A DNA stretch of 47,014 nucleotides from an uncultured Bacillota bacterium. Lineage in GTDB: Bacteria; Bacillota; Clostridia; Oscillospirales; Oscillospiraceae. The notes beneath the pieces were generated by a model that was not told the origin of the DNA, made no database searches, and was given only the letters and a program-made list of their open reading frames with translations. Each line of letters starts with the position of its first letter. The stretch's first letter is position 1. The position numbers and the translations under genes were made by a program. The DNA lies in assembly GCA_947426945.1 (NCBI GenBank), contig CANEFX010000020.1:1-47014 (forward strand), in the 5' to 3' direction. Of the stretch, positions 5,187 through 9,199 are shown piece after piece.

Positions 5187-6124
5187 TTTGCTCCCTCCTT
5201 CTTTTTGGCAATGCCCAGCTTATCCTGCCGGGTGTTGACCTCAATGTAGGGAGTGATCAGGTTCATCAGCAGGATAGCAAAGGACACGCCCTCGTTCATG
5301 TTGCCGAACCTGCGGATCATCATGGTGACCACGCCCAGGAAGATACCGGCAATCAGCTTGCCCTTGTCTGTGGTGGGGGAGGTCACATAGTCGGTAGCCA
5401 TGAAGAAAGCGCCCAGCATCAAACCGCCGGAGAGCAACTGCACAATGGGATCCATCCCGAAGCACAAGGACAGGACGGCTACAGAGGCCAGATAAGTAAC
5501 AGGGAGCACGGGGCTGATGACCTTGGTGGCAATCAGATAGATGCCGCCGATAAGGATGGTGATGGCGCAGGTCTCGCCCAGTACACCGCCGTGGTTGCCC
5601 AGCAGCAGGGTCACATAGTCGGCGGCGCCCAGCTCGCCTGCTGCAGCCAGCGGGGTGGCAGAGGACAGAGCATCTACGCCGTTAGCCGGCATGGGGTAGG
5701 CAGACATCTTGGCTCCGAAGCCTACAGCCAAAGCGATACGGGCCACAATAGCTGGGTTGGCAAAGTTGTAGCCCAGACCGCCGAAGAGCTGCTTGATGAT
5801 GACAATGGCGATAAACGCGCCTACCACGGCCATCCACCAGGGGAGGGTGGCGGGCAGGTTGAAGGCCAGCAGCATGCCGGTAACCACGGCGGAGAAATCC
5901 TCCACGGGGACCTCCCGGCCCATCAGCTTGCAGTAGCCCCACTCGAAGAAGACGCAGGCGGCCACAGTGACGGCGGTGAGGACAAGGGAGTTGAACCCGA
6001 AGATAATCACGGAGGCGATCAGGGTGGGGCACAGAGCCAGACACACCCGGCCCATGATTTTCTGGGTGCTGTCCGCGCTGGTAATGTGGGGCGCGGCGGT
6101 GACAATCAGCTTGTTATCCATCAC
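5183..6124 (-). CDS. rnfD: Rnf electron transport complex subunit D
   Basis: A 313-residue membrane subunit homologous to NqrB. It has about eight to nine hydrophobic helices. The covalent FMN site is visible as D151-A-L-S154-S-A-T157-P-L, with Thr157 the expected attachment residue. N-F-A-N-P-A-I-V-A-R (around 120-130) and D-Y-V-T-S-P are further family signatures. RnfD passes electrons between the flavin of RnfG and the cytoplasmic side and is linked to ion translocation. It overlaps rnfC and rnfG by four bases on each side. Two adjacent ATG codons (M-M-D-N-K) make the exact start uncertain by one codon. Confidence 0.96.
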   Translation of the reverse strand: MMDNKLIVTAAPHITSADSTQKIMGRVCLALCPTLIASVIIFGFNSLVLTAVTVAACVFFEWGYCKLMGREVPVEDFSAVVTGMLLAFNLPATLPWWMAVVGAFIAIVIIKQLFGGLGYNFANPAIVARIALAVGFGAKMSAYPMPANGVDALSSATPLAAAGELGAADYVTLLLGNHGGVLGETCAITILIGGIYLIATKVISPVLPVTYLASVAVLSLCFGMDPIVQLLSGGLMLGAFFMATDYVTSPTTDKGKLIAGIFLGVVTMMIRRFGNMNEGVSFAILLMNLITPYIEVNTRQDKLGIAKKKEGAK

Positions 6125-7428
6125 TTCTTACCTCCATTCTTCATCATGATCTTGGCCAGGGCGATGGAGGGGGCCAGAGGCCGCTTGGCCGGGCAGACAA
6201 AGGAGCAGGTGCCGCAGCTCATACACAAATCGGCGTTGAGTTCGATCAGCAGCTCCACGTTGCCGTCGTTGTAGGCCTGGACGATCTCCTTGGCGGACAG
6301 CCCCAGGGGGCAGGCGTTGGTACACCGGCCACAGTGGATGCAGTTGGTGGGCTTGGGCAGCTGAGCCGCTTTCTTGGAGAACGCCAGCACCGCGTTGTTA
6401 TTCTTCAGAATGGGCTGGGACAGATCGGCAATGCAGTTGCCCATCATGGGGCCGCCGTAGAGCACCTTGCCCGGCTCCTCGGTAAAGCCGCCGCAGAAGT
6501 CCATCAGCTCCTGAACGGGGGTGCCGATGATAACCTCCACGTTCTTGGGCTCCTTGATAATGTCGCCGTCCACAGTGAGACGCTTGGTGGTCAGGGGCAT
6601 ACCGGTGGCCAGGTACTTGCCCACAAAAGCCACGGAGGTGACATTCATCACCACCACCCCCACGTCGGAGGGCAGGCCGGGGAAGGGGACCTCCCGACCT
6701 GTGCAGTTCTCAATGAGGACTTTTTCAGCGCCCTGAGGGTAGCGGCAGGGCAGCTCCTTCACCTCTATCCCGGCGGGAGCGGCGGACTTCATCTTGGCGA
6801 TGGCCTCTGGCTTGTTGCCCTCGATGCCGATGACGCACCTGGGGATCTCCAGATACTTCATCACCGCCTGGATGCCGTCCAGGATGTACTGGGTATCCTC
6901 CAGGAAACAGCGGTTGTCCGAGGTAATATAAGGCTCGCACTCGGCGCCGTTGATGAGGAGGGTATCGATCTCGTCCAGGTTTTTGGGGGACAGCTTCACC
7001 GCCGTGGGGAAGCCGGCGCCACCCAGACCCACCAGACCACTGGCCCGGACCGCATCCTGGAACGACTTGAGATCGGTGACGGTCGGTGGGGCAACGGCGG
7101 GGTCCACCGTCTGCTTGCCGTCGGGAATAATCACAACGGCCGTCTGAGGCGCGCCGTTGGGCGCGGTGATGGTAATAATGCTGTCCACCGTGCCGGACAC
7201 ACCGGAGTGGATATCGGAGGAAACAAAGCCCCCTGCCTTGCCCACCACGGTGCCCACATAGACCTGATCGCCCTTGGCCACCGCGGGGGCGGCCGGGGCG
7301 CCAATGTGCTGCCCCATGGACAGGACAATCCTGGAGGGCAGCGGCATTTTCACGGTCTCCTGGTTGGACGTCCGCTTTTCATGCGGGACCTGCGCACCCT
7401 GCGCAGATCGTTTGAGAAATTTGCTCAT
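6121..7428 (-). CDS. rnfC: Rnf electron transport complex subunit C (NADH-binding)
   Basis: First gene of rnfCDGEAB, 435 residues with the start chosen at 7428. The reading frame stays open upstream to 7647, but that extension is Arg-rich and unlike RnfC. The ATG at 7428 has a good GGGAGGT ribosome site (complement of 7441-7447) and gives a family-length protein beginning MSKFLKRSAQ. A glycine-rich flavin/NADH site (G-L-G-G-A-G-F-P-T-A-V-K-L) and the E-C-E-P-Y-I motif resemble Complex I NuoF. Two ferredoxin clusters follow: C363-C366-C369-C373 and C402-C405-C408-C412. RnfC carries the NAD(H) reaction of the complex at the cytoplasmic face. Confidence 0.96.
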   Translation of the reverse strand: MSKFLKRSAQGAQVPHEKRTSNQETVKMPLPSRIVLSMGQHIGAPAAPAVAKGDQVYVGTVVGKAGGFVSSDIHSGVSGTVDSIITITAPNGAPQTAVVIIPDGKQTVDPAVAPPTVTDLKSFQDAVRASGLVGLGGAGFPTAVKLSPKNLDEIDTLLINGAECEPYITSDNRCFLEDTQYILDGIQAVMKYLEIPRCVIGIEGNKPEAIAKMKSAAPAGIEVKELPCRYPQGAEKVLIENCTGREVPFPGLPSDVGVVVMNVTSVAFVGKYLATGMPLTTKRLTVDGDIIKEPKNVEVIIGTPVQELMDFCGGFTEEPGKVLYGGPMMGNCIADLSQPILKNNNAVLAFSKKAAQLPKPTNCIHCGRCTNACPLGLSAKEIVQAYNDGNVELLIELNADLCMSCGTCSFVCPAKRPLAPSIALAKIMMKNGGKK

Positions 7429-7690
7429 GTAAGTTTTCGACCTCCCTATAACTGCTGCTTTTGCGCCCTGCACAGCGTACAGAGCCGGGCGCGGCCCGCG
7501 CTTCACCCTCTCCGCATAGGTCCGCAGCCCGCCGTCTCCGCTCCCGCGGACACGGCGCAAGCGCCGCCGGTCTCTCTTTCTGCTCGTTTTCCTGCCGGCG
7601 GCCGCACTGGTGAAAAATATGATACACCTTTTTCCCGCAAAGCGCAAGGCATTTTGGGCAGTCTTACCTATTTTTCGTCAAAAAATTTTT
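7429..7690 (-). promoter_or_regulatory. rnf operon promoter candidate and structured leader
   Basis: On the minus strand a TTGCGC -35 (7647-7642) and a TATCAT -10 (7624-7619) are separated by 17 bases, predicting a transcript start near 7612 and a leader of about 185 bases. The leader can fold into CGGCGC/GCGCCG (7553-7566) or into GCCGCCGG/CCGGCGGC (7563-7570 with 7595-7602). These use the same four bases at 7563-7566, so they cannot both form. No T-tract follows either, so regulation by attenuation is only a possibility. No gene is seen in this stretch. Confidence 0.45.
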
Positions 7691-7699
7691 ACCCGCTTT

Positions 7700-7742
7700 C
7701 CAAACAAAAAACAAGGCACAGCCCGAAAATTCGAGCCGTGCC
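7700..7742 (-). terminator. Intrinsic terminator of the candidate small RNA
   Basis: On the minus strand GGCACGGCTCGA pairs with the arm ending GGGCTGTGCC (7742-7731 with 7726-7715), including two G-U pairs and a four-base loop. It is followed by TTGTTTTTTGTTT. This is a textbook intrinsic terminator reading only on the minus strand. Confidence 0.75.
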
Positions 7743-7881
7743 TAAAATAGGGCTTGCGTAGTTTGTCAAGATGCGATACAATAGGGGCACAAGGCAAATT
7801 GAGGCAGGACGTAAGGTGGTGACGCACCTTACGCCCCTATGCAGGAGACAGCACCTCCTACACAACAGCATTGCTGCGCCA
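7700..7881 (-). ncRNA. Candidate structured small RNA (6S-like in size and layout)
   Basis: A complete transcription unit without a reading frame. Minus-strand promoter: TTGAAA (-35), 17 bases, TATAAT (-10 at 7893-7888). An intrinsic terminator with a 12-bp stem and long T-tract ends at about 7700. The two ends of the RNA pair: 7881-7886 with 7749-7754 (six bp), then 7877-7879 with 7756-7758, with single mismatches between. Inside, ATAGGGGC/GCCCCTAT (7781-7788/7833-7840) encloses a perfect nine-bp hairpin CGTAAGGTG/CACCTTACG (7810-7818/7825-7833). A closed-end RNA of ~180 nt with a large internal loop recalls 6S RNA, but I cannot recognise its consensus and the SRP RNA tetraloop motif is absent. 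The family assignment is open; the existence of a transcript is fairly well supported. Confidence 0.55.
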
Positions 7882-7887
7882 GCCCTC

Positions 7888-7916
7888 ATTATATCGGAAA
7901 CGCCGCCGTTTTTCAA
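7888..7916 (-). promoter_or_regulatory. Promoter of the candidate small RNA
   Basis: Read on the minus strand: TTGAAA (7916-7911), a 17-base spacer, TATAAT (7893-7888), giving a start near 7881. This is one of the closest matches to the sigma-A consensus in the window. A weak plus-strand hairpin with five Ts (CCGCC/GGCGG, 7903-7907/7918-7922) overlaps it. Confidence 0.65.
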
Positions 7917-8003
7917 GGGCGGTTTTTGGGGGTTTGTGTCTGTTCAGTTGCGGTGTGGGATCATTTATCCTGCGCCGCTTTCGTTTGCCTTGGCGGAAAA
8001 CTG

Positions 8004-8036
8004 CCCCGGAGGGCCGCAAGCCCCCGCCCTCCGGGG
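8004..8036. repeat. Strong hairpin in the leader of the stalk-domain gene
   Basis: CCCCGGAGGGC (8004-8014) and GCCCTCCGGGG (8026-8036), an 11-bp perfect stem with an 11-base loop, 50 bases before the ATG at 8087. No T-run follows, so it may stabilise or regulate the mRNA or may simply be another palindromic repeat. Confidence 0.5.
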
Positions 8037-8086
8037 GTCAGAACCGTCGAGGATGCCCCAAATCAACATGAAGAGAGGTACAAACG

Positions 8087-9199
8087 ATGAAAAAACTGAA
8101 ACAGGCACTTTCCCTTTCTCTGGCACTCGTTCTGTCTCTGGCAATGGCCGTTCCAGCGTTTGCGGAGGAATCAGATTGGACAATGAAAGTACTCGGCAGG
8201 TCCGAAGCTGAGGCATTCGTGGGCAAAAAGACCTTTACCGTCCGCACTTGGGACGAGTATAACTATGGTGCGTTCACCAAATCAGACAGCTACGAATTGA
8301 CGGCGAAAAATGTGTATGTACTGGCAAAGGGCGACACAGCGGTATTTACCTATAAACCGGAGGTATATACCGCTCCCAGCGGCGGGCAAGTTCATGGCAG
8401 TACGGAAGGCAGTACGCCATATTCTTTTTTGTTGAAGGCGTGGTCAGACCCGGACGGAGACGGCGTGTATGACGGACGATTGATAAGGGAATCGTTTGAT
8501 GGCGATGAATATGAGGTTCAACCAATCGACATTGCCGATGCAGGCCCAATGGATTCTCCCATGTTAAGCATTTATGAGGGGGCCACTGGTGAGTGGCCAG
8601 TTGAGGTAAAACTGTCCGCTGACAGGGTGCTGGAACTGTTTGGCCCCAACACCCTCGTAGGGATTGCTGACAGATGGATTTCAGAGCTTTCAGAGACTGA
8701 CGCATATTGGTACATTCTTGTGGAGGGTGATACCGCCCAGCCCACCACGCCGACCCAGCCTGTTACCCCACCCGCTGAGGTCAAGACCGCCAATCCCACC
8801 AACGACAAGCTGTCGGTGAACGGTGCGGCGCAGAATCCCACGGTGTACAAGATCGGCGGCAGCAACTTTTTCAAAATCCGTGACGTTGCCGCCATGCTCA
8901 ACGGCACCGAAAAGCAGTTCAACCTGGGCTACGCCGGCGGCAAGGTGACGGTCACCTCCGGCCAGCCCTACGAGGCCACCGGCAAGGAGCTGGCAGGCGC
9001 GCCCTCCGACAGCAAGACCGCCTCCCCCTCTAACGACGCTATTATCATCGACGGTGTGGAGACCGGCCTGACCGTCTATAAGATCGGCGGTGCGAACTAC
9101 TTCAAGCTGCGGGACCTGGGCAAAGCCCTGAATTTCTATGTCGGCTGGGAGGCCGGCAAAGGCGTGTACATCGAGACCGGCAAGCCCTACGGTGAATAA
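8087..9199 (+). CDS. Secreted protein with two copper-amine-oxidase-like (stalk) repeats
   Basis: 370 residues with a clear signal peptide (MKKLKQALSLSLALVLSLAM, then AVPAFA) and a GAGAGG ribosome site. Residues ~25-215 form an unrecognised domain that is acidic and rich in aromatics. A Thr/Pro linker (P-T-T-P-T-Q-P-V-T-P-P) leads to two repeats of about 60 residues: N-x-x-N-D-K-L-S-V-N-G...V-Y-K-I-G-G-S-N-F-F-K-I-R-D-V-A, and S-N-D-A-I-I-I-D-G...Y-K-I-G-G-A-N-Y-F-K-L-R-D-L-G. These match the 'copper amine oxidase N-terminal-like' or stalk domain common on clostridial surface proteins, where no amine oxidase activity is implied. Likely cell-wall associated; function unknown. The C-terminal repeats use more GC-rich codons than the N-terminal domain, which hints at a composite origin. 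Confidence 0.8.
   Translation: MKKLKQALSLSLALVLSLAMAVPAFAEESDWTMKVLGRSEAEAFVGKKTFTVRTWDEYNYGAFTKSDSYELTAKNVYVLAKGDTAVFTYKPEVYTAPSGGQVHGSTEGSTPYSFLLKAWSDPDGDGVYDGRLIRESFDGDEYEVQPIDIADAGPMDSPMLSIYEGATGEWPVEVKLSADRVLELFGPNTLVGIADRWISELSETDAYWYILVEGDTAQPTTPTQPVTPPAEVKTANPTNDKLSVNGAAQNPTVYKIGGSNFFKIRDVAAMLNGTEKQFNLGYAGGKVTVTSGQPYEATGKELAGAPSDSKTASPSNDAIIIDGVETGLTVYKIGGANYFKLRDLGKALNFYVGWEAGKGVYIETGKPYGE

Follow-up and report, generated by a model that had tools for sequence, protein, structure and literature searches.

Locus organization

The window analysed here is a 47,014-nt stretch of DNA from an uncultured Oscillospiraceae bacterium (contig CANEFX010000020.1, positions 1–47,014, forward strand). 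Between the rnf operon and the gene of an exported protein, the DNA at 7707–8086 comprises two overlapping predicted structured RNAs, one per strand, with the following features (window coordinates):

7707–7881, minus strand: antisense RNA ("F-RNA"), ~175 nt, ends predicted from promoter and terminator
7714–7743, minus strand: intrinsic terminator of the antisense RNA, 13 pairs plus T tract
7754–7782, plus strand: sense (leader) promoter TTGCGT-17-TACAAT, predicted transcript start ~7789
7789–8086, plus strand: structured 5′ leader ("R-RNA") of the exported-protein gene, ~300 nt
7790–7803, plus strand: P1 5′ strand, front of the message, partner 7979–7992
7807–7836, minus strand: P2 hairpin (the nine-bp hairpin of the initial annotation), minus-strand wobble pairs
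7841–7861, minus strand: P3 hairpin, variable loop, minus-strand wobble pairs
7860–7939, plus strand: P4 (7860–7865 with 7934–7939), strand bias not clear
7866–7876, plus strand: P4a, inner hairpin inside P4
7883–7888 with 7927–7932, plus strand: P4b, enclosing the antisense promoter
7888–7916, minus strand: antisense promoter TTGAAA-17-TATAAT, 11/12, kept across the family
7950–7978, plus strand: P5 hairpin, plus-strand wobble pairs
7979–7992, plus strand: P1 3′ strand, the end of which doubles as the P6 5′ strand
7988–8052, plus strand: P6 (7988–7996 with 8044–8052), overlapping the P1 3′ strand
8072–8078, plus strand: Shine-Dalgarno sequence AGAGAGG
8087–9199, plus strand: putatively regulated gene, ATG at 8087, 370 aa, signal-peptide-like start, no Pfam match

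The antisense RNA and the first ~95 nt of the leader, the P1 5′ strand included, are complementary, and the -10 boxes of the two convergent promoters lie ~105 bp apart. P1 closes a domain holding P2–P5, with its 3′ strand ~190 nt downstream of the message front. Since P6 overlaps this 3′ strand, P1 and P6 are mutually exclusive there.

The minus-strand RNA

The initial annotation had described a self-contained structured RNA on the minus strand, either the 6S RNA of the lineage or an undescribed regulatory RNA. Both of its transcription signals were recovered in a scan of 7000–8500: the promoter at 7916–7888 (TTGAAA-17-TATAAT, 11/12) was the sole promoter-like site (chance mean 0.8), and the terminator at 7743–7714 was found among four terminator-like sites in total (chance mean 2.2). 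The 177-nt minus-strand RNA folded better than 200/200 shuffles (z -6.4). The nine-bp hairpin (P2) was present as described, and a compensation test found both sides changed in 11/11 pairs tested. The paired RNA ends and the eight-bp stem said to enclose this hairpin are likewise present in the window copy but showed no covariation across copies: in a swap test, the natural partner outscored the swapped one in only 52/112 copies for the stem that closes the RNA ends and in only 54/111 for the eight-bp stem, and both enclosing stems were rejected as features of the RNA. No separate rnf promoter, as had been predicted nearby, was found in the 7000–8500 scan.

The RNA is also not self-contained, as it runs antisense to the front of the surface-gene leader, which has its own conserved structure. 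Its description as an undescribed regulatory RNA gained support from the minus-strand promoter and from P2 and P3, which recur in distant members with minus-strand wobbles. Overlooked at the time were the plus-strand promoter, the leader, which extends to the ATG at 8087, and the existence of a multi-copy family. The minus-strand RNA alone was rejected as the functional unit because the plus-strand promoter, P1, P5 and the gene distances emerged; it is probably real, but half of the story.

The RnfC frame (6121–7647) was listed from a TTG at 7647; in our judgement, the likelier start is MSKFLKR near 7428, which leaves ~285 nt between this start and the antisense terminator. A 508-aa rnf-like frame occupies the same place as in the window at one other copy (L074).

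Copies and distribution

A DNA search with the window copy across 99 genomes, its own included, yielded matches in 27, all of the same genus, with no more than seven per genome. Placed side by side, the copies were conserved from upstream of the minus-strand -35 box to beyond the sense promoter, and the conserved stretch is therefore larger than the RNA of the initial annotation. A covariance model (R1) was built from 49 copies chosen for diversity and length, and matched the leader at 7786–7992 with 199.7 bits, the window copy itself being part of R1. Within the family, R1 found matches in 139/400 genomes and 54/106 genera; within the order, in 49/295 genomes and 34/149 genera, these genomes being partly shared with the family sample; and across the phylum, in 6/299 genomes, the source genome included, which holds seven copies. 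A broader covariance model (R2) gave matches in 35/197 genomes of the order, with up to 10 copies per genome, and in 20/341 of the class. The E-values of both models are rough, and most matches were uninspected. A long exact-pattern scan, which was too strict, returned three contigs only, one from Oscillospiraceae (class Clostridia) and two titled only Firmicutes or Bacillota.

The loci read were 19 distant ones, a further seven from the phylum search and 17 from R2, of which five repeat phylum loci. They showed the same anatomy, whole or in part, except for L162, which was unconvincing, and L163, which was partial, with only P2, P3, P4a and the antisense promoter visible. L163 and L022 both retain the antisense promoter together with P2 and P3, but the 3′ half of the leader that other copies have is missing; these two may be stand-alone antisense-type RNAs. 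In and around L028:1483–1525, the P2, P3 and P4a hairpins occur with neither promoter, apparently a decayed copy.

Copy counts given below refer to 126 copies with fetched DNA matching R1, a subset of all hits, or to the 114 non-redundant copies obtained by setting aside 12 near-identical ones; L028 and L071 (partial or spurious) and seven weak secondary matches were left out. As the copies are related, these counts are not independent events.

Conserved structure and strand-specific wobble pairs

P1 joined its natural partner better than a swapped one in 110/114 copies, or in 108/114 with a stricter score. In the first swap test, P6 reached 104/114, a margin that includes the inner hairpin of P6, and the mirror strand also reached 81/114 for both P1 and P6. 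Over the 57 pairs of P1–P5 in 49 copies, 91.3% of cells pair, a value that fell to 41–56% when the partners were slid by 1–3 columns, and both-side changes occurred in 31/57 pairs versus 17.4 when shuffled (0/500). The folding energy of the whole element was a weak strand test, with the leader strand lower in 73/114 copies.

A G-U pair on one strand is an A-C mismatch on the other, and the scoring treated both strands alike. Wobble pairs were in excess on the minus strand for P2 (102 versus 4 copies) and P3 (111 versus 0), and on the plus strand for P5 (108 versus 0), P1 (67 versus 21) and P6 (74 versus 19). The minus-strand wobbles of P2 occupy nearly every stem position beyond the three loop-proximal pairs. 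This split persisted for P2, P3 and P5 when copies were divided into near, middle and far groups; for P1, the bias was weak in the middle group (9 versus 6) and absent from the far one (10 versus 11). Among 25 copies from outside the order, P3 favoured the minus strand (23 versus 0), P5 the plus strand (17 versus 0) and P2, more weakly, the minus strand (13 versus 4), in segments that were crudely cut and with 4/29 copies lacking the anchor motif.

P2 and P3 lie within the minus-strand RNA, and P1, P5 and P6 require sequence exclusive to the plus-strand RNA. Because the wobble pairs split by strand, both RNAs appear to be selected, and the split argues, from sequence alone, for one locus in which both strands are selected as separate structured RNAs. 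That both exist and are under selection would be the simplest account, and we infer that both are made. The plus-strand leader is, in our estimate, close to certain, and a selected minus-strand RNA is highly probable.

Convergent promoters and terminators

The antisense promoter scored at least 9/12 in 113/114 copies, compared with 12% of shuffles, and kept its 17-nt spacer in 110/114, with variable spacer letters. The sense promoter had a mean score of 8.6/12 versus 6.65 in shuffles, with at least 9/12 in 53/114 copies and a 17-nt spacer at the best site in 106/114. By mean score, the antisense promoter (10.2/12) is thus closer to the consensus than its sense counterpart. At the level of primary sequence, the cassette has the convergent promoters over a shared leader that are expected of a leader controlled by a cis-antisense RNA.

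Past the sense promoter, minus-strand terminators were found in 54% of 56, 60% of 47 and 30% of 10 copies, according to neighbour classes that are crude frame calls, compared with 9–12% in shuffles of that stretch. On the plus strand of that stretch, terminators were present in 43%, 36% and 20% of copies by neighbour class; terminators on the leader strand as well would be a point against an antisense-specific reading.

Possible alternative pairing of P1 and P6

Whether P1 and P6 compete was assessed with several measures of unequal outcome. A count of overlapping pairing gave 13.5 shared nt versus 13.3 in shuffled and 13.1 in swapped sequences, which is no better, and the score was the sole measure that differed (38.6 versus 33.0 and 31.5). 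An 18-nt swap test favoured the natural sequence in only 51/84 copies. An ungapped helix involving four or more nucleotides of the P1 strand was better with the copy's own downstream sequence than with a swapped one in 70/84 own-order copies, in a stricter test that was picked after the overlap count had shown no separation.

The position of P6 relative to the ribosome site differed between own-order copies and the others. In the own order, P6 usually stops short of the Shine-Dalgarno sequence, at a median distance of 19 nt from the start codon that follows. Outside the order, the Shine-Dalgarno sequence lies in the P6 3′ strand, with a frame of at least 40 aa starting within 22 nt, in 14/22 copies; this count used a lenient motif, eight of the 22 fail, and one (L189) has no P1 by the strict score. 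In one outside-order example, P1 is formed by AGGGAAAATTAAA/TTTAATTTTCCCT and P6 by ATTTTCCCTCCA/TGGAGGGAAAAT, with GGAGG, located a few nt ahead of the start, as the Shine-Dalgarno sequence. Because P6 holds the Shine-Dalgarno sequence in such members, the P1 5′ strand would act there as an anti-anti-Shine-Dalgarno.

Equilibrium folding of 85 leaders favoured P6 over P1 (P1 occupancy 0.14). When the front region was blocked, P6 pairing rose from 0.67 to 0.77, and the mean accessibility of the ribosome site stayed the same (0.42 versus 0.41; lower in 29 leaders, higher in 23). This thermodynamic modelling gave no support to the last step of the mechanism proposed below, for which a co-transcriptional or RNase-based event would have to be assumed.

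Genes downstream of the leader

A start codon preceded by a Shine-Dalgarno sequence was found within 420 nt in 110/126 copies, at a median of 94 nt past P1 (quartiles 83 and 104). Frames that begin like a signal peptide or lipoprotein signal followed 89/126 copies, compared with 14% of 183 control frames; the rule was one of simple hydrophobicity, not SignalP, and the control frames were longer (at least 180 aa). Several further exported-protein genes were missed by this rule because they are cut or short. Of six exported proteins searched against Pfam, four matched LRR_5, SLH or WG above the curated score, and no match was obtained for the other two, including that of the window.

Fifteen copies (L017, L021, L033, L041, L049, L050, L051, L055, L057–L060, L062, L088 and L104) precede a protein of ~50–60 aa with the sequence MPDYKxMYLTLFxATEEAxNLLIQAQQxCEELYI, often with an additional hairpin in front. 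Pfam gave no match for the small protein of L062, nor for that of L120, a possible distant relative, and two of three small proteins tested against PHROGs had weak matches only, of unknown function. Outside the order (L177, L181 and L175), the leader precedes small non-exported proteins, some of them DUF6809-like or SpoOE-like.

Proposed mechanism and alternative explanations

We propose that the locus is a two-RNA cassette, in which a leader switch of an exported-protein message is gated by its own antisense RNA, and we give this reading a probability of about 0.68. The plus strand would yield the ~300-nt leader, whose front pairs ~190 nt downstream to form P1 and close the P2–P5 domain; the end of the P1 3′ strand could instead re-pair further on, as P6, just ahead of the ribosome site. 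The strong promoter inside the leader would yield the ~175-nt antisense RNA over the message front, and pairing between the two would block P1 and allow P6 to form, so that translation or message stability would go down. Antisense control of the P1/P6 choice is somewhat better than an even bet, and the odds are even that its sign is repression. Each antisense RNA may be directed preferentially to its own leader by the loops of P2 and P3, which are variable. More tentatively, and at slightly less than even odds, the copies would form a chromosomal paired-RNA family that extends over several clostridial orders and further, each of the several copies per genome gating its own exported- or small-protein message with a built-in, copy-specific antisense RNA.

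If this is true, the copies would constitute a regulon of repeated, insulated antisense switches in which the message front serves as an anti-anti-Shine-Dalgarno strand. Exported proteins are the means by which these bacteria interact with their environment, and a multi-copy cassette that roughly one in three of the family genomes sampled carries, mostly before exported-protein genes, would define a regulon by its RNA.

The best-surviving alternative is a ligand-binding riboswitch, in which a metabolite or ion would switch between P1 and P6 and the antisense promoter would carry little weight. A 5′ UTR at a fairly fixed distance from the gene, conserved unpaired stretches, exclusive helices and the Shine-Dalgarno sequence within P6 outside the order all fit such a switch. 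The strong conservation of the antisense promoter, which resembles the consensus more closely than its sense counterpart does (10.2 versus 8.6 of 12), and the antisense-strand wobbles of P2 and P3, which a riboswitch alone would leave unselected, speak against it, and we consider it improbable. Riboswitches that sequester the Shine-Dalgarno sequence likewise have two helices that exclude each other, with the ribosome site held in one of them, as it is here outside the order; the cassette differs from them in the conserved antisense promoter inside its leader and in having no Rfam family over threshold. The Rfam covariance models, to which the initial annotation had pointed for an identity, produced no family at gathering score across the window. 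Within 7500–8100, three chance-level matches were obtained (E 8.8–9.8, far below thresholds), none of them within 7576–7993. At 48 further loci (16, 20 and 12), no family, riboswitch classes included, was over threshold at any copy, and sub-threshold overlaps with copies had E-values of 0.19 or worse.

Somewhat less probable still is a minus-strand RNA that acts in trans or binds a protein, with its overlap with the leader an incidental convenience. Its own promoter and terminator, its selected hairpins and the several related copies per genome would suit this role, as would L022 and L163, in which the antisense promoter, P2 and P3 persist without the normal 3′ half of the leader. The other copies read, however, keep the leader and antisense parts together, and cassette orientation and gene distance are preserved.

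Transcriptional interference, in which the convergent promoters would oppose each other and the RNAs themselves would be dispensable, agrees with a stronger promoter facing a weaker one at the spacing found in the window (~105 bp between -10 boxes), but the covarying, strand-specific hairpins in both RNAs make it very improbable. A dispersed mobile repeat of the MITE or REP-like kind, carrying palindromes, would account for multiple diverged copies within genomes; it is scarcely credible in view of the compensatory changes, the mostly single orientation and the similar distance to start codons. The window copy matched none of 72,556 plasmid records and no phage records, in a DNA search with this copy only, which diverged copies would escape. 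Finally, the 6S RNA, which the minus-strand RNA resembles in its length near 180 nt, is refuted because RF00013 matches another contig of the same genome (G000:C5:108479–108678, 69.3 bits) and not this locus, with no match in the window at gathering score nor within 7500–8100 at E ≤ 10, and the closing stem is unconserved.

Comparison with known systems

The proposed two-RNA cassette resembles the antisense-controlled replication leaders of plasmids (pT181, pIP501/pAMbeta1, R1 copA/copT and ColIb-P9 Inc/repZ), in which, too, a short, strong antisense RNA covers the first part of a leader that is structured and has alternative folds, and hairpin loops are suited to first contact. It differs from them in occurring in several copies per genome, before genes of exported or small proteins and across orders, and was not classed as a plasmid replication leader because no replication gene was among those translated and no plasmid or phage match was found for the window copy in the DNA search. 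Type I toxin-antitoxin systems of the hok/sok type also have an antisense RNA overlapping a gene leader; the genes of the cassette encode exported or small proteins, not small hydrophobic toxins.

A description of the cassette was not found among the literature listings searched, nor through term matching in PMC8040213, PMC11109978 and PMC8632094. PMC8040213 reports thousands of candidate motifs, and this one may sit unnoticed among them. A skipping-rope RNA (RF02924, 65.4 bits) was identified at L179:2591–2674, ~0.9 kb from a copy.
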